Shown here in pieces: positions 2,258 to 27,248 of a DNA stretch of 64,000 bases. A model generated the notes under the pieces. That model worked only from the letters and a program-made list of their open reading frames with translations, searched no databases and was not told where the DNA came from. The translations under genes and the position numbers were made by a program. Source of the DNA: Roseofilum capinflatum BLCC-M114. Its GTDB lineage: Bacteria > Cyanobacteriota > Cyanobacteriia > Cyanobacteriales > Desertifilaceae. How positions within the stretch are numbered: the stretch's first letter is position 1; every line of letters begins with the position of its first letter. Location: NCBI RefSeq assembly GCF_030068505.1, contig NZ_JAQOSO010000082.1:62001-126000 (forward strand). The letters are read 5' to 3'.

Positions 2258-2806
2258 CTACAATGGTGCGATCGCAACTCCAGTTAAGTTGCTCCGATAG
2301 CTCACCATTTCTTGACTTGCCCCAAAATGCTCTCCAATTTCAGCTACATTCATCTTTTTCTGGGTTGCCCACAGCAAGCCACGACGGGGAATTTGCAAAC
2401 AACTGCCTAAATACGTGGCTTCTTCTTCAAATTTTTGTTCTCGTTGGGGCAAACCCGTTTCAGGATTGAAACAAACCATCGGATGTTTGAGTAGAATATG
2501 AGCGCATTCGTGCATCAAATCGGATTCTTGTCTAGGAGGTGAATGTTGAGAATTGTGAACAATACATAATGGATCGATGCAGATAATAGCAGCCGACCAT
2601 TGACCTTGAGATAGCAGATGTCTAACCTGTTCGGGATCGGCATTGGGAACGGTTTCTGGAGTCCATAACGTTGCGCCTAATTTGGCGGCTAAATTTCGTG
2701 CAGGAAGTGGCTCGAAGGCCCGCAAATCCAATAAACTACGCTGTTCGGTGGCGATCGCCTCACATCGTTGCCGAAATTCAGGCGATAAACTTTCTAAGCT
2801 CGACAT
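2258..2806 (-). CDS. ImmA/IrrE-family zinc metallopeptidase
   Basis: 182 residues. HECAH at 99-103 is the HExxH zinc motif, and the downstream EEEATYLGSCLQIP (from about 127) supplies the third, acidic ligand, as in ImmA of ICEBs1 and IrrE of Deinococcus. These proteases cleave a partner XRE repressor when activated. The partner is the gene just upstream on the same strand (3 bases between them), so the two are co-transcribed. The pair diverges from the pPIWI-RE operon. A toxin-antitoxin role is an alternative, since many XRE/ImmA pairs are annotated that way. Confidence 0.88.
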   Translation of the reverse strand: MSSLESLSPEFRQRCEAIATEQRSLLDLRAFEPLPARNLAAKLGATLWTPETVPNADPEQVRHLLSQGQWSAAIICIDPLCIVHNSQHSPPRQESDLMHECAHILLKHPMVCFNPETGLPQREQKFEEEATYLGSCLQIPRRGLLWATQKKMNVAEIGEHFGASQEMVSYRSNLTGVAIAPL

Positions 2807-2809
2807 GCT

Positions 2810-3187
2810 TTATTCAGGCTCCTGTTCTGATTGATTACTCTGTGCCAGATCTCGATAAGCTGCTTTAACCAAAGCTGCTAAAGCATTGGCTGTTGCTGGA
2901 TCGAGGTTTTTATCGGCTCGAAGTTGGATGGCGATCGCCTCGGATGCATCCATATCCGTAGAGACTTGTGGTTCTTCACTATTCTCGATCAGTTCGGCTG
3001 GCGGCACTTGCAGCCAATCGCACAATAACAAAAAGGTCTCCATATCAGGCATTTTGCCGTTCTCGACGCGAGAGAGAGTCGAAGGACTCACCTTCCCAAT
3101 TTGGCGAGCCGTTTCTCGCAGTCCTTTATTACCGCGCTTAGTCCGCACGAGCGTTGCTAACCGACTCATGTTCAGAGAGCTACCCAT
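2810..3187 (-). CDS. XRE-family helix-turn-helix transcriptional regulator
   Basis: 125 residues. Residues about 7-65 form a Cro/CI-type HTH (LRETARQIGKVSPSTLSRVE, then NGKMPDMETFLLLCDWL). The C-terminal half is acidic and helical. Either the ATG at 3187 or the Met at codon 7 (MSRLATL) could be the start. By family precedent it represses its own promoter and is cleaved or inactivated by the co-transcribed ImmA-like protease. It faces the pPIWI-RE operon across about 190 bases, so it may also control that operon; this is inference. Confidence 0.85.
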   Translation of the reverse strand: MGSSLNMSRLATLVRTKRGNKGLRETARQIGKVSPSTLSRVENGKMPDMETFLLLCDWLQVPPAELIENSEEPQVSTDMDASEAIAIQLRADKNLDPATANALAALVKAAYRDLAQSNQSEQEPE

Positions 3188-3244
3188 AACCGTTTCCTCT
3201 TCCTTGACAGATTGACTGCGCCAGTGTTGCTCATAAGAAAAAAG

Positions 3245-3289
3245 TGTCTCTTGCTTGACACGATCAGAGAAAGTGCGCTACTGTATGAT
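3245..3289 (+). promoter_or_regulatory. Candidate sigma70-type promoter and operator for the pPIWI-RE operon
   Basis: TTGACA at 3255-3260 is a perfect -35. TACTGT at 3279-3284 is a fair -10 with 18-base spacing. The -35 overlaps a short palindrome, TGTCTCTTGCTTGACA (3245-3260), and a second CTTGACA lies at 3203-3209 towards the XRE gene. An XRE protein bound here could control both directions. Sequence inspection only. Confidence 0.45.
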
Positions 3290-3376
3290 TAATAAACCAA
3301 TTGTATCTCATGTCGAACACAACAGAACGGTTCGCGCGATATTGACTCCCGTAATTTACCAGTTAGAGGGGGAACT

Positions 3377-4546
3377 ATGCCGAAATTTGAAACCTTTAGT
3401 TATCTGGTCATCGGTTTGCATGAATTTTGCCAAGAAGAGCAAAAACATGGTAGAGAGAAGTCCAAATATCCTTATCCAGATATATTTCATCTTGCCTGCA
3501 ATGAATTAGCTCTAAAGATGCCCTACGGAACCTATCCACGCACTCAAACAGGTCTTTTCAAACTATTCGAGCAACCGGTTGAAAATTGGTGGCCGAATGG
3601 GTTGGAGATCCCTGAAGAGTTCGATCGCAGCTCAGGCTTATTGTATGATGGAAAACCAAGCGAAGAAACCTTTGATTATCTTGATGCACTGTTTGAGGGA
3701 GAGTTGGATGTAGATAAAATTCCGAATGCGGTAAATATCCAAATTATTGTCGAAAATAAACAGTTTCGGGATTTATTTCTGCGATTAAACGAAGAATATC
3801 TCAGTGGAGACAGCGATCGCGCCCAAGACGAATACATTAAATTGCGTTCTTTCCTCATCGATCGCCCTTACACCACAACCAGTAAATTACGGGAAGAATT
3901 TACAAGAACCCACTATATTACTAACAAAGAAGTAGGGGATCTGTACGAGGATTGCGATCGAGGACGCACGTACTGGAATTGCGATCGCTGTGGGCCTTTA
4001 GTTGAGAAACATGGACGATTACAAGGGATTAAACCCGAAGCCTGCCGAGATCATCGTCAGGAACTCGATTACGTTCGAGAAGTCCCTTGGGAACAGGAAT
4101 TGCGTCGTCTCAAGTCTGGAATTCACAGCCGGGTTTGTTTACCCGGAATACCGGAAATGGATCTTTGGCGATCGCTGGAAAAATTGCAAGAAAGATATCC
4201 AGAACAACTTGTTGATACTCGTTTGTGGCCGGGACTCGATAGCTACGATATGCAACTTCGTTTTAGCGATAATTCGGTTTGGGCTGTGGATGTCAAAGAC
4301 TATCGCAATCCTCATCGATTGGGTCAAAAACTGAAAAACATTCCGGGAATTACTGAAGATTTACGTTATACAGAAGCATTCTATGTTTTTCCCAATCGTC
4401 GCTTCAAATGGCGAGAAAATTATATCCAAATTGTTCGCAGTAGCGCCACAAATTTATCTCAAGCAACCCATCTTCTGAGTATTCCCAGCTTTGAGGAACG
4501 TATCGAGCAAAAAATTCAATCTTTAGCCCAGGAGAAAAAGAAATGA
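3377..4546 (+). CDS. pPIWI-RE-associated PD-(D/E)XK nuclease with Cys4 cluster
   Basis: 389 residues, first gene of a three-gene operon (AGAGGGGGA ribosome site before the ATG). Cys193, Cys202, Cys205 and Cys223 form a probable zinc ribbon. The C-terminal third has the restriction-endonuclease fold signature: GLDSYD (Asp288/Asp291) followed by VWAVDVKDY, where Asp305-x-Lys307 completes PD-(D/E)XK. Three-gene pPIWI-RE islands described by Burroughs, Iyer and Aravind carry just such a nuclease with a DinG-type helicase and the pPIWI-RE protein. Its stop overlaps the next start (ATGA), implying coupled translation. Predicted role is cleavage of invading DNA; specificity unknown. Confidence 0.82.
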   Translation: MPKFETFSYLVIGLHEFCQEEQKHGREKSKYPYPDIFHLACNELALKMPYGTYPRTQTGLFKLFEQPVENWWPNGLEIPEEFDRSSGLLYDGKPSEETFDYLDALFEGELDVDKIPNAVNIQIIVENKQFRDLFLRLNEEYLSGDSDRAQDEYIKLRSFLIDRPYTTTSKLREEFTRTHYITNKEVGDLYEDCDRGRTYWNCDRCGPLVEKHGRLQGIKPEACRDHRQELDYVREVPWEQELRRLKSGIHSRVCLPGIPEMDLWRSLEKLQERYPEQLVDTRLWPGLDSYDMQLRFSDNSVWAVDVKDYRNPHRLGQKLKNIPGITEDLRYTEAFYVFPNRRFKWRENYIQIVRSSATNLSQATHLLSIPSFEERIEQKIQSLAQEKKK

Positions 4547-7500
4547 GACATAGTAGTTTATTCGCTCCACCTCAATCCTATCAAGAGCGTCTGTCAGCAC
4601 TCAGAGAAAGATTGAACCAGAATGCAGCCATATTACTTAACGTCGAACTCGGTTTTGCCTTGATGGAATACCTAAAACTTGATGGCGAACCCGTGACGGC
4701 AGTTTGGGTAATTTTAAGCGGGATGCCTTTGCGCTATCCTACCTTACAAAACTTGACTCCAGAGCAACGAAGAGCGATCGCCAATGCTCGTCAAATTATT
4801 CCCTTATCCAGTCGTTCGGCTTGGGAAAATGCCTTGCGAGTTTACTTTCGAGACATTCCCGAACACGAGCGAAATTATACTGTAGAAAACCCAGGGAATT
4901 TCGATGAAATCATTATCGATGCTTGCAAACGAATTCGACATAAAAATCATCAGCATTTATACAGAACCTGGTTGGGTGAAACATTGTGTTTTCGAGAGAT
5001 CCAGCAAATAAACATAGAACCAGGTGAAGAACCCGATCAATCCTATCAGTTTGATGCTCGTACTTTCGATGAAATTGTTAATGTACAAGTAAAATTTGAG
5101 AACGAACATTTAGAGATCCGATCGCAGTTTCGCGGTGACTGGTTCGATCGCGCTCAGAATCGTACTCCTTTCTCTCTGAATCTTATCGAATTGGAGAAAA
5201 TTGCCCAATTTCTTGACGATCACGAAGATCGTCTAGCCACTCAGTATAATTGGCAAAACGAGCAGAAAGGAAACTGGCTCAAGCGTTATCGAAAAATTCA
5301 CTTTCACCCAGTCGTAGGCGATCAATTGAGTGCCGATGATGCACCCAACTTAGAACTTGATGGTTTCACCCATATTGCTGGGATGGTTGCTTCGGGAAAA
5401 TCGACCTTATCCCTTCTGCTTGCGGCTTATCTCATCAGACAAGAGAGCGATCGCCGTATGACTTTGGTCGTAGGTGACGTACAATCTGCGCTCAAATTAG
5501 CCAATTTGATTAACTGGTGGTTTCGCAGCGATCCAGAATCGGATAATCCCGTTGCTGTGCCGTTATTGGGTCACAGTCGGCGCGATCGCCACCTGCGAGA
5601 ATTTCACGGCTCTCGCGATTATTTAGAACATCAAGAACGCGGACAAACTCACTGGGGAGAACGTTGGTTGCGCGTTGAATGTCCATTGCAAGCTTTAATT
5701 CCAGATAAGGATCTGGCTCAAAAATTGAGTAATAAACCTATTATTCCTGGAGAAGAACCCTGTCACTCTCTCAAACAAGTTCCATCCCAATCCCAACGAA
5801 ATGCTCGCAGTTATTCTTATCTCTGTCCTTTGTTTCATATTTGTCCTTCTCATCAACTCTATCGAGATTTACCCACAGCACAAATCTGGATTACCACTCC
5901 CGGTGCAATGGCAATGGGAAGAATGCCGCGTCAGCTTGAATCTCGACCCATTAGAGTTGGTGAATTGGTTTACGAACAATCCGATATCGTGATTTTCGAT
6001 GAAGCCGATACAATTGTGAAGTGGTTTGATGATGTTTATGCCGAAGAGGTATTACTAACCAATGGAAAAGATGGGGTTTTTGATACCGTTGGCTTGGCTA
6101 CAGAACGCCACATGATACAGGATCGAACTCCCAATCAACAAATAACGCAACGATGGGTGGGAGCGCAACGAGCAGCGCAACAAGCTATCACCGTAACGTT
6201 AACGTTATTGTCAGAAAATGAAATTCTGCGACAATGGGTCAAGAAGAGTTATTTTACACCCAATGCCTTGTTTTACAAGCTATCTCGTCGCCTTTCTGGG
6301 TTAGAAGAGTTCGATCCTGACGATACTCCTGAAGAGTCTTGTAAAGAAAATGAGCAATTAACCGCAGAAACCGTATCCATTTTCGATCGCCTCTTTATTA
6401 ATGAAACAGATCCTTTACGACCACAAAGGCTTCGGCAATCTGACAATCGAGTTGAATATTCAGCGTTTCGACTGGCTTCACTCCTACAAGAAATCAATAG
6501 TGCGGGTGAGAGTGCTTTTGATGACGATATTTTGGCTAATTGTCAAGCATGGATTCTGGAATTTTTCCCTGATATCGAACAAAAATTAGCACGTTTGCAA
6601 AATGCGATCGATGCACGTAACGCTCAACAACCCAAAAAGAGAGGACGCAAACGCAAAAATAATGAGGATGGCGATCGCGCGGACACCCTAGAAACTTTAG
6701 CACGTCGGTTGCAATTTGCCCTAACTGCGGCGTTGTTGGATCGGCATACTCATATTGTTTTTTATGAATGGTACAGTCGTCCAAACTCCATCGAAGGAGA
6801 ACAACCTCACCGGAGGATGCCAAGTGCAATGTTGAATATTCTTCCCTTACCTCCTACAGGAAGGCAATTTGGGACATACTATTCACGAGGAAATGAGGAC
6901 GATAACAACAACTTATCGATATTTTCCTACACCAATATCGGTCGCTGTTATGTGTTAAATTCCCATCGCTTGCTAACCGATCTTGACGGTCTGCGCGGCC
7001 CTAATGTTTTAGCACTTTCTGGAACGTCCTATTTGCCAGATTCAACAAAGTTTCACGTTGGCGATCCTCAAGGAGTATTGATGCCAGAGGAAACAGCACG
7101 CAATGCGATCGCAGAAAGTCGTTTTGCATTTATCCCTCAGTACGATCTTGATGGTAAACCGATCCGTATTTCTGGAGTGGCAGAACATAAAAAAATGAGT
7201 GCGTTTAAGGAACTTGCTACAAAACTGGTTGGCAATCGAGGAACGGGATTATTGAGTCGAGAGATTGAGGAATTAAAAGACCTTGGAGAAAACGATGAAA
7301 AATGGAGGGATCGCGATCGCTTGCTTATTTTAGTCAACTCCTACGATCAGTCAAAATGGGTCGCCGATCAAATTCGCCAAAAATGGTCAAGTCAGAGCAG
7401 TAAAATTTTTCATCTGCGACGCGGTGGTGTTACCGATGATAGCGAACTGGGTTCTTATTTTAAGGAAAGGGATGAGGCGGATGGGTTAGCGCGAGCCAAT

Positions 7501-8124
7501 ATCGAAACCTTTGCTCAAACTGAAGGAAAAATTCTCGTTGCTCCCATGCACGCCATAGGACGGGGGTTTAATATTCTCAACGATCGAGGAAAAGCGGCTT
7601 TTGGTGCAGTGTATTTTCTCACTCGTCCTTATCCCCATCCTCATGATACGCAGGCGATCGCCCAAGAAGTCAACCGCCGTGCGTTAGACTGGGCAAACGA
7701 TCCCGATTTTATCGCCTGGCTGCAAGGTGACGGGATATTGCAAAGGGCGCGAGAAGTGCGAAAACTCGCTGCTGAGTATTGGCGATCGGTCGAGCAAAGG
7801 TCTTACTATAGTACATTGCGCGATGATGAAAAATTACGCGCTCGTCCTCGCCGAGATTTAGCCGCAACAACAGCCGGATACATCATTCAAGCCGTCGGAC
7901 GATTACTTAGAGGAGGTGTACCTTTTCATGCTTATTTTGTGGATTCTGCATGGGCCCCTGAGAACGCCAATCCAGATTCCGAAAAACCAGACACGGAGAA
8001 AACCAGTTTGCTCGTTGCCATGATTCTTTGTTTAGACGACTATGCTTGCGACGAAAATACAGTCGGTTCTGCACTGTATAAACCATTAATTGATGCATTG
8101 GAAAATATGGAGTTAAATTGGTAA
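4543..8124 (+). CDS. DinG/XPD-type Fe-S superfamily 2 helicase of the pPIWI-RE island
   Basis: 1193 residues. Walker A is GMVASGKST (280-288) and the Walker B box is DEAD (486-489). Between them lie four cysteines, Cys380, Cys407, Cys428 and Cys434, placed like the 4Fe-4S cluster of XPD/DinG helicases. QAVGRLLRGG (from residue 1116) is motif VI with its arginine fingers. A basic stretch near residue 700 (KKRGRKRK) may bind nucleic acid. The N-terminal 270 residues are not recognised and may be the island-specific domain. It overlaps the nuclease gene by 4 bases. Presumed to unwind DNA or an R-loop for the nuclease and pPIWI partners. Confidence 0.85.
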   Translation: MRHSSLFAPPQSYQERLSALRERLNQNAAILLNVELGFALMEYLKLDGEPVTAVWVILSGMPLRYPTLQNLTPEQRRAIANARQIIPLSSRSAWENALRVYFRDIPEHERNYTVENPGNFDEIIIDACKRIRHKNHQHLYRTWLGETLCFREIQQINIEPGEEPDQSYQFDARTFDEIVNVQVKFENEHLEIRSQFRGDWFDRAQNRTPFSLNLIELEKIAQFLDDHEDRLATQYNWQNEQKGNWLKRYRKIHFHPVVGDQLSADDAPNLELDGFTHIAGMVASGKSTLSLLLAAYLIRQESDRRMTLVVGDVQSALKLANLINWWFRSDPESDNPVAVPLLGHSRRDRHLREFHGSRDYLEHQERGQTHWGERWLRVECPLQALIPDKDLAQKLSNKPIIPGEEPCHSLKQVPSQSQRNARSYSYLCPLFHICPSHQLYRDLPTAQIWITTPGAMAMGRMPRQLESRPIRVGELVYEQSDIVIFDEADTIVKWFDDVYAEEVLLTNGKDGVFDTVGLATERHMIQDRTPNQQITQRWVGAQRAAQQAITVTLTLLSENEILRQWVKKSYFTPNALFYKLSRRLSGLEEFDPDDTPEESCKENEQLTAETVSIFDRLFINETDPLRPQRLRQSDNRVEYSAFRLASLLQEINSAGESAFDDDILANCQAWILEFFPDIEQKLARLQNAIDARNAQQPKKRGRKRKNNEDGDRADTLETLARRLQFALTAALLDRHTHIVFYEWYSRPNSIEGEQPHRRMPSAMLNILPLPPTGRQFGTYYSRGNEDDNNNLSIFSYTNIGRCYVLNSHRLLTDLDGLRGPNVLALSGTSYLPDSTKFHVGDPQGVLMPEETARNAIAESRFAFIPQYDLDGKPIRISGVAEHKKMSAFKELATKLVGNRGTGLLSREIEELKDLGENDEKWRDRDRLLILVNSYDQSKWVADQIRQKWSSQSSKIFHLRRGGVTDDSELGSYFKERDEADGLARANIETFAQTEGKILVAPMHAIGRGFNILNDRGKAAFGAVYFLTRPYPHPHDTQAIAQEVNRRALDWANDPDFIAWLQGDGILQRAREVRKLAAEYWRSVEQRSYYSTLRDDEKLRARPRRDLAATTAGYIIQAVGRLLRGGVPFHAYFVDSAWAPENANPDSEKPDTEKTSLLVAMILCLDDYACDENTVGSALYKPLIDALENMELNW

Positions 8125-8154
8125 CTCATTTTTGAGATTTAGGAGACAGAAAAA

Positions 8155-11118
8155 ATGCCTACACGATCCAATTCTTTACCGGTAGTTTTACCCGCTCGCA
8201 TGAGTTTAAATGAAAACCCATTTGACGATCTAGAGATTGCTGTTTTTGATTTCCCTTTTCAGGATGCGATCGATCGTTTCACACAACAACTTAAAGGTTT
8301 ATTAAATAAAAAAAGATTAGAGTGGTGGCAATATCCACCTTATCGATTGCTCAATAATGCTATCGTTGCCTGTTCTCCAACCGTCGTACATGGATTTGAA
8401 AAATATGGCGTAAAGAACGAACAAATCCGCAGGATGTTGGCAATTGGCAAAATCGAACGCAATTCTAAAGGAGAAATAATCAGTTCTTCTTTAACACATC
8501 CTACTGAGGAGCAAATTACTGAACTTATTCTAATTTGGATTCAAATTTGGGGACGACAACCGTGGCTCAAAGAAATCATTACAGGACAAGGAAAAATAAT
8601 TTGGGAGGAGTTGTTAACAGCTTTACAGGATAAGCCTCAAACCCAATGGTATAATATTAGCCCAAAAACTTTTCTTAACGATCTTTATGCAGAGAAAGGT
8701 TTAGCTTTTAATGCAGTTCCCAGTTTATTGTCAACTTTACTACACGGTCAAACCTCCACAATCGCCGATAGAGAAGTATATTGGCGTAAGGCACAAAATA
8801 GCTCGAATCGACTTTGCGTAGTGAGCCAGCCTCTCCCCATATCTTTTATGCGAAAGAGCGGTTTTAAGGAATCAGCAGAAGAAGGCTTCTTTTCCTATAA
8901 ACTTGAGTTCCAAGTTCAGACACAAGCGGGACGCGATCAACCTTGGATTTATGCTTTTCTACATTGTCAGCGCTATGCAGAGAAAAAATTAACGCGCAAT
9001 CAAAGATGGAACGATATTACGATTTTATTGGGAATGAATCGGCAAAGGATGGATGGATGGGAAATTGATTCAACTTTAGTTAGCTTGAAAGCTAAAGCTA
9101 ATGTAAAAAAAGGAGATTGGTTAGATAAACTTCCTCAGTTACTTGAAGAGTTTGGAGCGCGTTCTCTGGTTTCTCCTGTTGAAATTTACGCAAATCCTCA
9201 AAATTTTTGGAAGACTAATAATTTGGATGATGAGTATTATGTTATTCATACAGAAGGATATAAATATGGTCGCAGTACGCATAAAGTACAAACAGGTTTT
9301 GGTTTAGCCGAACAGAGTGAAATTATCGATCGCACTTGTTGCAATCTGCTGCAAGGTGTTTTGCAACCCGATCGTGCGCTTGAACCCGATCTACAGATAT
9401 TTCCTCTAAAGCCTCTTCCTCTTGCTTTATGGACATTTGAGAATCTTTCTGAAAGTCCTCCCTTAATGAGCGCACAAAAGGCTAAAACACAAGGATTGAC
9501 AGACGAGCAACGCTATGAAGTGCGCGATCGCGAAACTCGTCAAAAGAAGCGAGAACAGCAATATATTCCTGCGGAAGCTGTAAAAAGAGCATTACGAGGA
9601 AAATCTCTAACCATTTTGATTATTTATCAAGAACAAGATACTTGTGATGCGATTTACAAACAATTGCGAGAAACATTTTTGTTGAATGAGGAAGATTCTT
9701 TTCCTGAAAATCTTACCATTATTAAAACACCTATTCTCGATCTTCAACTTGGTCAACACTTAGAGGTTGGAGACCTTAAACCTGAAATGCGATATAAATC
9801 TCCCTCATCTCGACAGAAAGGCTTTGAAGATCAATGGAATAAGGCAATTAAGAAAGCACATCGTGAAAAACGAGAGGCTTGGCGAAATTTCTTGAAAAAA
9901 ATCAAAACTGAAGAGGAGATTAGACAAGATTCTTTTTGTGTAGCTATCATTGAGCGATTGGAAGAACCCACTTTGTGGGAAAAGTTTCATCCAGACCAAG
10001 GAATTAAAGGAAGCATTCGGGAAGCGTGCGATCGCGAAGGAATCCTCTCTCAAATGATACGCGGTGTACAATGGAAAACAGATGAGGAGACTAAAGAACG
10101 AACCTTAAGACCAGCCGATAAAGGTCGCACTCACAATGCTGTGCAAGACCTAATTATCCGTCAACTCGGTGTATTATACGATCCCCCGAATACAATTTAT
10201 CAAGAAATCGGGATTCCAGAACAACAGGCACGAGAATTAGATGTGGTTGCTTTTGCTTTAATTAAAAAACAAATTGGCGTTACATACGCACTAGCCGTTC
10301 GTCTGCGAGCATCTGGAGAAGTGGATGTATTACTCCCGGAAGCAAAAGACTGGATACCTTATGCTGAAGCTGGATATCAATTAGGACAGATATTTGCTGA
10401 GGCAAGATCGTATTTTAACAATGGGAAGATGCAAAAAGACCGTCCCGTTAGTCTAAACTCTAAGACTCTGGTGAAATTTGTTGAAGATACGTTAACTCAG
10501 AAGTTAGATCGCCCAACGATTGCCATTGTAGAAGCAGAAAACTGGCGCAACCAAGGTGCGTGGGGACAATTGAAAAACGATCGATTATCTGAAGCCTTAG
10601 ATAGACTGGAACTGGGGGAAGTATACGAACGAGACGATTCTGAACTGAGTCATCTTCTTGGGGTTATTCGACTTCGGACTGGGGATGAAACTCCTCAATA
10701 TATTACCAATCGAGAAACCTGGCAGAAAGATGGCGATCGCCTCTCGCGTGATTTATACGAGCTTTCTGGCTTTGTCGAGCGATCGCATAACGAAGTTTTT
10801 CATTACTTCTCGATTGGAAGACTTCCAAGCACGATTAAAGGAGATCAGCGTACTAAAGGTCGTGAAGATCCTTACAAAATTGCAGACGCGGGTGGAATTC
10901 CTTTTAAACATTCACAAGCAATTGAAATGCTGCCGTTCTTTGTTTATCCAGATTTTCAAGGTAATGAGGAGCGCAAGGTACTTTGTCGAGTTCCCCATTA
11001 TTTACGCTTCTCTCCTGCATGGACAATGGGTAATATTGTCTTACCTTATCCCATGCACTTAGGGGAACAATTAATTCAAGATCGACTGTGTATCCTTGGA
11101 GTTACGGAAAAATTTTAA
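8155..11118 (+). CDS. pPIWI-RE protein (Argonaute/PIWI-like RNase H-fold module)
   Basis: 987 residues, last gene of the operon; AGGAGA precedes the ATG. Features fitting pPIWI-RE proteins are the size, a long N-terminal region (about 1-620), and a C-terminal module (about 660-985). The module holds AIVEAENWRNQGAW, VIRLRTGDETPQY (Arg839, Arg841), NEVFHYFSIGRLPS (Glu880) and the closing HYLRFSPAW, LPYPMHLGEQL. The family name refers to a conserved Arg and Glu in the PIWI domain; I cannot say with certainty which residues these are here. Proposed role is guide-directed recognition of foreign nucleic acid with the helicase and nuclease. Identification rests on context plus remembered family motifs, not a search. 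Confidence 0.8.
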   Translation: MPTRSNSLPVVLPARMSLNENPFDDLEIAVFDFPFQDAIDRFTQQLKGLLNKKRLEWWQYPPYRLLNNAIVACSPTVVHGFEKYGVKNEQIRRMLAIGKIERNSKGEIISSSLTHPTEEQITELILIWIQIWGRQPWLKEIITGQGKIIWEELLTALQDKPQTQWYNISPKTFLNDLYAEKGLAFNAVPSLLSTLLHGQTSTIADREVYWRKAQNSSNRLCVVSQPLPISFMRKSGFKESAEEGFFSYKLEFQVQTQAGRDQPWIYAFLHCQRYAEKKLTRNQRWNDITILLGMNRQRMDGWEIDSTLVSLKAKANVKKGDWLDKLPQLLEEFGARSLVSPVEIYANPQNFWKTNNLDDEYYVIHTEGYKYGRSTHKVQTGFGLAEQSEIIDRTCCNLLQGVLQPDRALEPDLQIFPLKPLPLALWTFENLSESPPLMSAQKAKTQGLTDEQRYEVRDRETRQKKREQQYIPAEAVKRALRGKSLTILIIYQEQDTCDAIYKQLRETFLLNEEDSFPENLTIIKTPILDLQLGQHLEVGDLKPEMRYKSPSSRQKGFEDQWNKAIKKAHREKREAWRNFLKKIKTEEEIRQDSFCVAIIERLEEPTLWEKFHPDQGIKGSIREACDREGILSQMIRGVQWKTDEETKERTLRPADKGRTHNAVQDLIIRQLGVLYDPPNTIYQEIGIPEQQARELDVVAFALIKKQIGVTYALAVRLRASGEVDVLLPEAKDWIPYAEAGYQLGQIFAEARSYFNNGKMQKDRPVSLNSKTLVKFVEDTLTQKLDRPTIAIVEAENWRNQGAWGQLKNDRLSEALDRLELGEVYERDDSELSHLLGVIRLRTGDETPQYITNRETWQKDGDRLSRDLYELSGFVERSHNEVFHYFSIGRLPSTIKGDQRTKGREDPYKIADAGGIPFKHSQAIEMLPFFVYPDFQGNEERKVLCRVPHYLRFSPAWTMGNIVLPYPMHLGEQLIQDRLCILGVTEKF

Positions 11119-11151: not shown

Positions 11152-11190
11152 TACAGTTGTCTTAACTTTAATTAGAATTGCTCGATCTTC

Positions 11191-11322
11191 CTAATCTTCA
11201 TGATCTTCAAAGGGATCGTCAAGGACTTCCGAGGGCGGGCCAAACGATGTATATAACGAAACACCTGTTAGGGCCAGGACGATCGCCACAATGCCGATAT
11301 TAAGAACCGTTGCAGTTTCCAT
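11191..11322 (-). CDS. psbN: Photosystem II assembly protein PsbN
   Basis: 43 residues, translated by hand: METATVLNIGIVAIVLALTG, then VSLYTSFGPPSEVLDDPFED and HED. It has one membrane span and the typical C-terminal FGPPS...DPFEDHED. PsbN helps early assembly of the photosystem II reaction centre in the thylakoid membrane. It lies divergent from psbH, the arrangement conserved in cyanobacteria and chloroplasts. Confidence 0.97.
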   Translation of the reverse strand: METATVLNIGIVAIVLALTGVSLYTSFGPPSEVLDDPFEDHED

Positions 11323-11340
11323 AGGTTTCTGAACTAAGAT

Positions 11341-11362
11341 ATACTATCCTTAAATATAGTAT
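11341..11362. promoter_or_regulatory. Inverted repeat in the psbN-psbH intergenic region
   Basis: ATACTAT and ATAGTAT arms lie in the psbN/psbH divergent spacer, followed at about 11382-11400 by two touching HIP1 octamers (GCGATCGC). The AT-rich palindrome could be part of the psbN or psbH promoter. Function not shown. Confidence 0.3.
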
Positions 11363-11478
11363 TACAAAAATTTACATTTGGTGGCGATCGCGGCGATCGC
11401 GATTCCTTCCGGATTCGCAGTTCTGCCAGACCCAGACCAGTGTAAAATCAGAAAATTGAAACGGAATATAGGAGACCC

Positions 11479-11682
11479 ATGGCACAACGTACCCGTTTAG
11501 GAGACATCCTCAGACCCCTGAACTCGGAATATGGTAAGGTAGCCCCCGGCTGGGGAACCACCCCATTAATGGGAGTGTTTATGCTACTGTTCTTAGTCTT
11601 CCTGCTGATTATTCTCCAAATCTACAACTCCTCCCTCCTGCTGGAAGGATTAGACGTAGACTGGACGACTCTCGGTCGGTAG
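11479..11682 (+). CDS. psbH: Photosystem II reaction centre protein H
   Basis: 67 residues, single membrane span ([20 protein letters not shown]). [20 protein letters not shown] and VAPGWGTTP are diagnostic of PsbH. The phosphoprotein-type subunit stabilises CP47 and the QB site in photosystem II. AGGAGACCC precedes the ATG. A hairpin terminator follows, so it is probably monocistronic. Confidence 0.98.
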
Positions 11683-27072: not shown

Positions 27073-27119
27073 CACATATTTCAACAGCAATGAGTAGAAT
27101 TACTTATTAAAAGAGCGTG

Positions 27120-27248
27120 ATATCAAGTCCGGTTAATTTGTTAAGAAGCGGGCAAGATGCCCGCACTCCTCGAATTCTTTGATATGACTGGAGTGGGAGC
27201 ATCTTGCTCCCTGGATTTTTAATTAGGGTATTTAAGCGAACTTGATAT
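27120..27248. repeat. Palindromic element with ATATCAAGT/ACTTGATAT ends
   Basis: The outer arms ATATCAAGT and ACTTGATAT enclose GGCAAGATGCCCGCACTCC, paired with GGAGTGGGAGCATCTTGCTC. It fills most of the spacer between the GNAT and PBP genes and looks like a non-autonomous dispersed element. Confidence 0.65.

Follow-up and report, generated by a model that had tools for sequence, protein, structure and literature searches.

The locus described here lies in a stretch of 64,000 nucleotides from Roseofilum capinflatum BLCC-M114 (contig NZ_JAQOSO010000082.1, positions 62,001 to 126,000, forward strand), the whole of which is called the window and supplies the coordinates below. An effector operon of the pPIWI-RE family (3377-11118), consisting of a PD-(D/E)XK restriction endonuclease (REase), an Fe-S DinG-type helicase and a pPIWI-RE protein (PIWI), faces an XRE repressor and an ImmA-like protease across a short divergent region. 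The coordinates of all five genes agree exactly with those of a preliminary description made from the sequence, in which the shared region had been put at about 190 bases:

2258-2806, minus strand: ImmA-like protease, open reading frame of 182 residues
2810-3187, minus strand: XRE repressor, open reading frame of 125 residues
3188-3376: divergent gap between XRE and REase, 189 bp
3377-4546, plus strand: REase, open reading frame of 389 residues
4543-8124, plus strand: DinG-type helicase, 1193 residues, overlapping the REase gene by 4 bp
8155-11118, plus strand: PIWI, 987 residues, starting 30 bp after the helicase gene

The counterparts in Roseofilum halophilum BLCC-M91 share 85-96% protein identity. 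Against that species dN/dS is 0.086 for ImmA, 0.17 for XRE, 0.27 for REase, 0.25 for the helicase and 0.35 for PIWI, so that all five are maintained proteins under purifying selection.

The three-gene pPIWI-RE composition, recognised earlier from the open reading frames, is borne out by both Pfam and PADLOC. The Pfam matches accepted for the five genes exceeded the curated cut-offs: REase matches pPIWI_RE_REase (1.2e-26), the helicase matches pPIWI_RE_Z (9.6e-25), and the assignment of the 987-residue protein is upheld by three profiles, RNaseH_pPIWI_RE (4.5e-25), pPIWI_RE_X (5.2e-18) and MID_pPIWI_RE (1.3e-12). The PADLOC models PprDinG (6e-127), PprPIWI (1.6e-56) and PprRE (1.8e-19) identify the same three genes. 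The order REase-DinG-PIWI, the Z, X, MID and RNaseH_pPIWI_RE domains, the zinc ribbon and the Fe-S cysteines are those of the three-gene system predicted as restriction by Burroughs et al. in 2013 (PMC3702460). The locus differs from that system in its dedicated divergent XRE and ImmA, and in the weakly recognisable Y domain of its REase (E 0.04, under the Pfam cut-off).

The REase zinc ribbon consists of C202, C205, C223 and H226, and the PD-(D/E)XK residues are D288/D291 followed by D305-x-K307. The helicase carries a Walker A motif near residue 285, a DE box at 486-487 and a Cys-rich Fe-S region whose four cysteines (380, 407, 428 and 434) are all invariant. In PIWI, D696, E793, H968, R839, R841, E845 and E924 are invariant within the XRE/ImmA-linked clade, with R839/R841/E845 kept in 21/21 aligned, and R839, R841, E845 and E924 provide several candidates for the equivalents of the conserved PIWI-domain pair R639/E718 of PsPIWI-RE from Pseudomonas stutzeri (PMC10991935). 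PsPIWI-RE belongs to the same protein family; its catalytic D525 probably corresponds to D696. Its catalytic D610 probably corresponds to E793, a Glu where other family members align Asp, and XRE/ImmA is unreported there (PMC10991935). The DEDX-type catalytic residues are complete in only a subset of the pPIWI-RE family. All of the 50 best PDB matches of the PIWI AlphaFold model are Argonaute/PIWI structures or complexes containing them, while its mean pLDDT of 65.8 is too low for active-site geometry to be read from the model. The genes of the system, with catalytic and metal motifs that are intact as judged from the sequence, are present at the locus.

The ImmA-like protein matches Peptidase_M78 (Pfam, 1e-15), its sequence being too divergent for a strong match to the PADLOC capP model (E 1.2e-4). 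No PDB relatives were found by sequence search, and matches came from the fold search alone: the AlphaFold model (pLDDT 90.7) matches IrrE (3dti, 3dte), CapP (7t5t) and PprI bound to single-stranded DNA (ssDNA; 8sln), with a Foldseek probability of 1.00. The HExxH residues (H99, E100, H103) and E127, E129, R92 and R171 are invariant in 28 of 28 sequences. In PprI, Arg85, located 7 residues ahead of the first HExxH histidine, helps make an ssDNA/sulfate site (PMC10904395), and R92 sits at the same offset ahead of H99. XRE (HTH_3, Pfam, 1.4e-8) has a helix-turn-helix (HTH) domain at residues 18-66 and a conserved C-terminal domain, and past the HTH domain it carries the motif I87-x-L89-R90-A91, with I, L, R and A invariant in 27/27. 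The site at which DdrO is cut lies in a C-terminal E-L-R-G loop, the Arg of which contacts ssDNA in a mutant-supported model (PMC10904395). I87-x-L89-R90-A91 is the predicted cleavage loop of XRE, the L-R likeness to DdrO being one of position and motif only, with a profile alignment that spans the HTH domain alone. R92 and the I-x-L-R-A motif would be the sequence correlates of an ssDNA-stimulated cleavage of XRE.

An HExxH metallopeptidase of the M78/IrrE fold thus adjoins an XRE-type repressor. A HTH repressor and an M78 peptidase beside an immune operon also constitute the CapH + CapP controllers (Lau et al. 2022), for which BREX, Pycsar, CBASS, DISARM and Bub are the named partners and pPIWI-RE is not mentioned in PMC13373217. 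With IrrE/PprI-DdrO of Deinococcus the pair shares the ImmA fold, the HExxH motif, the Arg 7 residues upstream, the DdrO-type HTH and an L-R-(G/A) loop in the C-terminal domain, but the Deinococcus pair runs a dispersed DNA-repair regulon and the extra GAF-like domain of PprI is absent at the locus (PMC10904395). The suggestion in the preliminary description that infection-triggered proteolysis may turn the system on gains partial support, on the side of proteolytic switching, from the IrrE/PprI/CapP fold, the invariant HExxH and the invariant IxLRA of the repressor. In one relative (L095:2511-3902, genome G608), XRE has a MazE-like C-terminal tail and a MazF-like open reading frame (3071-3433) separates XRE from ImmA; this looks like the insertion of a toxin-antitoxin unit into the controller, as recognised by eye rather than by profile.

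When the sequences upstream of XRE in 27 loci were aligned, a repeated dyad emerged, TGTTTC-N6-GAAACA, which is phased over the promoter in 26 intergenic regions. Four sites are predicted in the gap of the window:

3225-3242, plus strand: predicted operator O1, 2 mismatches to the dyad
3245-3262, plus strand: predicted operator O2, 3 mismatches, containing a -35-like TTGACA at 3255-3260
3282-3299, plus strand: weak operator-like site O3, overlapping a -10-like TATGAT at 3284-3289, clearer in relatives
3302-3319, plus strand: predicted operator O4, 3 mismatches

The dyad is exact in several relatives, such as L091, where two perfect sites lie 74 bp apart, and dyad pairs 20 bp apart are seen in many loci. 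The second dyad of the first pair contains TTGACA and the first dyad of the second pair contains a -10-like TATGnT, the two elements being separated by 17 bp in relatives such as L097. With as many as 3 mismatches allowed, 43 dyad matches occur in the 64-kb window as against 42.1 in shuffled sequence; within the 189-bp gap about 0.13 would be expected and 3 are seen.

The linkage of the pair to the operon was followed in 386 cyanobacterial genomes, an order-level sample of 391 genomes and 53 genomes of one genus, with clade ImmA defined by about 55% identity or more and a full-length open reading frame (28 loci). In the 386 genomes, ImmA gave 4 matches, each with a divergent XRE and the operon (one island, in G024, is spread over two contigs), and many further matches came from the other two samples. 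All 28 clade ImmA loci have XRE next to them, in some cases truncated, together with the operon or a portion of it; ImmA/XRE pieces that stand alone are remains of decayed copies. In the reverse direction, full-length clade PIWI members in the 391 genomes are confined to genomes that also carry the pair. XRE is present by every one of them with a sequenced upstream side, as is ImmA where the contig reaches; G619, considered as an ImmA-less exception, was rejected, its XRE being intact and its contig ending just inside ImmA. The XRE/ImmA linkage, put forward in the preliminary description as its own inference, is therefore upheld, the pair being retained next to all related operons for which upstream sequence is available. 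The pair adjoins an immune operon and is conserved with it, in the manner of CapH + CapP. Profile search to E = 1 found no XRE/ImmA of this type in any of 15 pPIWI-RE islands from elsewhere in the cyanobacteria.

The PIWI tree shows a single change of the XRE/ImmA label (support 100/100), and the linked clade spans eight cyanobacterial family labels (f1, f3, f4, f5, f10, f11, f57 and f58). The pairwise distance matrices of the four proteins ImmA, XRE, REase and PIWI are correlated with one another (r = 0.74-0.94, Mantel p 0.0005), consistent with co-inheritance. Distribution is patchy (12 of 386 genomes). A genome contig scan returned R. halophilum as the only match, the five-gene form having been surveyed within cyanobacteria. 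Plasmid-borne relatives exist; no relative of query protein P0005 was found in the plasmid collection, the phage collection or IMG/VR, and none of query protein P0004 in IMG/VR.

From WYL, MerR-like and fused-HTH cases, pPIWI-RE lineages appear to carry differing regulators. The 2013 survey described occasional HTH domains fused to REase, with LexA, TetR and MerR fusions (PMC3702460), and in one cyanobacterial pPIWI-RE operon the N-terminus of the REase is weakly MerR-like. In Bradyrhizobium elkanii pS15H (L174:3422-8844), a WYL gene divergent from the pPIWI-RE operon may be a CapW/BrxR-type controller, a parallel solution with a sensor protein that differs from XRE/ImmA; the gene for the RNaseH-domain protein there is unusually long (9.3 kb). 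XRE/ImmA pairs that are more distant (30-44% identity) stand opposite multiubiquitin/E1 operons in cyanobacteria; in Abditibacteriota the operon faced is of the E2-E1-JAB type. Distant pairs facing multiubiquitin or E1 (ThiF)-JAB operons, Bub/Bil-like, are seen in L103, L104, L106, L127, L128 and L121-L123, with PglZ also nearby in L121. This ubiquitin-like/E1-E2-JAB neighbourhood is the one reported for CapH + CapP (PMC13373217).

The term defence island, used in the preliminary description, holds for the operon itself but not for its flanks, where the neighbour genes tested are not defence genes: an FMO-like oxidoreductase on the left, and TatA, peptidyl-tRNA hydrolase, DUF3146 and SDH protease on the right, with psbN/psbH in between. 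No integrase or phage genes are found among the flanking genes tested (FMO, psbN/psbH, tatA, pth), so the locus does not adjoin mobile-element genes as a prophage or integrative and conjugative element (ICE) ImmR-ImmA module does. The psbH gene lies directly downstream (11190-11682), with psbN inferred on the opposite strand, and the sole Rfam match is a Plastid-psbN 5' untranslated region at 11520-11580; no guide-RNA family was found by the Rfam scan.

The window and R. halophilum have the right flank in common (psbN, psbH, tatA, pth) and differ in the left flank. Homologues of the FMO-like oxidoreductase (857-2170) are located elsewhere in R. halophilum and, in other Roseofilum genomes, either on a different contig or well away from the site, which indicates that the left flank was rearranged in the window. 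At the same site, Roseofilum G213 has the left flank of R. halophilum, a 77-bp PIWI scrap and then psbN, so that the operon has been deleted there; the scar (L036:9735-9935) comprises these 77 bp and about 130 bp resembling window 27117-27243, beside psbN. In four genomes (L089:3247-5949, L112:8360-11059, L115:9947-10942 and L101), the N-terminal half of XRE, the promoter, REase and most of the helicase are gone, with similar junctions at about residue 58 of XRE and about residue 843 of the helicase. In three of these loci, where the sequence was read, a PLD + SNF2-type helicase gene is in their place, for which the best PADLOC match is an HKD+Snf2 candidate; in L115, PIWI is intact and the inserted gene truncated. 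Short C-terminal PIWI tails (roughly residues 912/934/954-985) stand alone in L158, L159, L160, L161, L162 and L165, which suggests that deletions ending at similar points have recurred. The patchy occurrence and the many broken copies are in keeping with a defence system that is costly to carry.

The best reading is that a CapH/CapP-type controller, probably triggered by ssDNA, is a constant component of a five-gene pPIWI-RE subtype, and it is considered probable that this system acts against invaders under an XRE/ImmA proteolytic switch. In the repressed state, XRE would bind the tandem dyads over the divergent promoter, keeping expression of the REase-helicase-PIWI operon at a low level. 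The ssDNA arising from DNA damage or phage replication would activate the ImmA-type protease, as for PprI and CapP, and ImmA would then cut the C-terminal domain of XRE, most likely at L89-R90, thereby releasing the promoter and inducing the operon. PIWI with a nucleic-acid guide may mark invader nucleic acid, RNA-DNA hybrids or R-loops being the targets proposed in 2013 (PMC3702460), which the DinG-type helicase would unwind and REase would cut. Gene content, motifs, strict linkage, protease fold and operator-like dyads come from sequence and comparison; repression, cleavage, the ssDNA trigger, the effector order and defence are inferred, the steps past the operator-like sites and the protease fold by analogy with CapH/CapP, PprI/DdrO and the 2013 proposal. 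The full account, a damage-inducible, Argonaute-like and RNA/DNA-guided restriction with a fixed switch, a cut at L89-R90, four phased operators and ssDNA as signal, other lineages using WYL or fused HTH regulators, is favoured with somewhat less assurance.

Several observations weigh against this interpretation. The linkage represents one ancestral acquisition that was kept, not many independent ones, and tests that treat loci as independent (Fisher, 27/0 vs 0/15) are therefore not used as p-values. The dyad consensus was read off the same regions in which it was scored, which makes the per-locus shuffle p-values optimistic and only indicative. The predicted operators of the window carry 2-3 mismatches, a promoter scan gave no sigma-70 match in the 189-bp gap, and the divergent promoter of the window is weak or shifted. 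The replacement of the second PIWI catalytic Asp by Glu makes slicing uncertain. In P. stutzeri, the only studied pPIWI-RE, a growth/ciprofloxacin phenotype was described, with no phage test (PMC10991935).

This last phenotype, ciprofloxacin sensitivity with altered cell division upon deletion, is the only published one and would fit a controller as proposed above whose effector, derepressed by damage, serves mainly in DNA repair or replication stress, resolving R-loops or stalled forks. DinG-type helicases act on R-loops, and IrrE/PprI controllers run the DNA-damage regulon in Deinococcus (PMC10904395). Such a role is nevertheless judged unlikely, as the patchy distribution, the frequent loss and breakage, the plasmid-borne relatives and the recognised immune types of operon that related controllers face are more readily explained by defence than by a housekeeping role.

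The XRE/ImmA pair might instead be an independent regulator of a stress or mobile-element type, neighbouring the operon without controlling it. XRE/ImmA pairs also control ICEs and prophages (PMC10233336), and some relatives keep an intact pair beside broken effectors, a further point against the proposed switch. Full-length clade ImmA, however, always occurs with the operon or what is left of it, the divergent arrangement is strict with dyads on the shared promoter, and the tested flanks hold no integrase or phage gene, which renders this explanation quite improbable. Least credible of all is an antitoxin-like lock, in which XRE represses toxic effectors and its loss, post-segregational or turnover-based, rather than proteolysis provides the trigger. 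One relative combines an XRE-MazE-like fusion with a MazF-like gene inside the pair, and a broken XRE is in no case accompanied by a complete set of intact effectors; the latter was rejected as a proof of toxicity because XRE makes up only about 4% of the locus length, so that XRE-only breaks are expected to be absent by target size. The effectors being most of the target, the broken-effector loci likewise do not show repressor loss to be lethal. The invariant ImmA active site (28/28) and the lowest dN/dS of the five genes argue that protease activity is selected.

Each of the two components has been described before, the three-gene operon in 2013 and the CapH/CapP-type controller in 2022. Their fixed combination, the operators and the cleavage site appear undescribed in the literature searched, and a full-text search of incomplete coverage brought up no description of pPIWI-RE with the pair as a fixed partner. 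In conclusion, pPIWI-RE has been predicted as restriction since 2013, its anti-phage or anti-plasmid function not being demonstrated in the literature searched, and the proposed switch names testable points, the residue pair L89-R90 and the four operator sites. Should a cleavable repressor indeed lock this subtype, it could be switched on directly by knocking out that repressor or by triggering DNA damage, and an Argonaute-like effector would join the operons under ssDNA-sensing proteolytic controllers.

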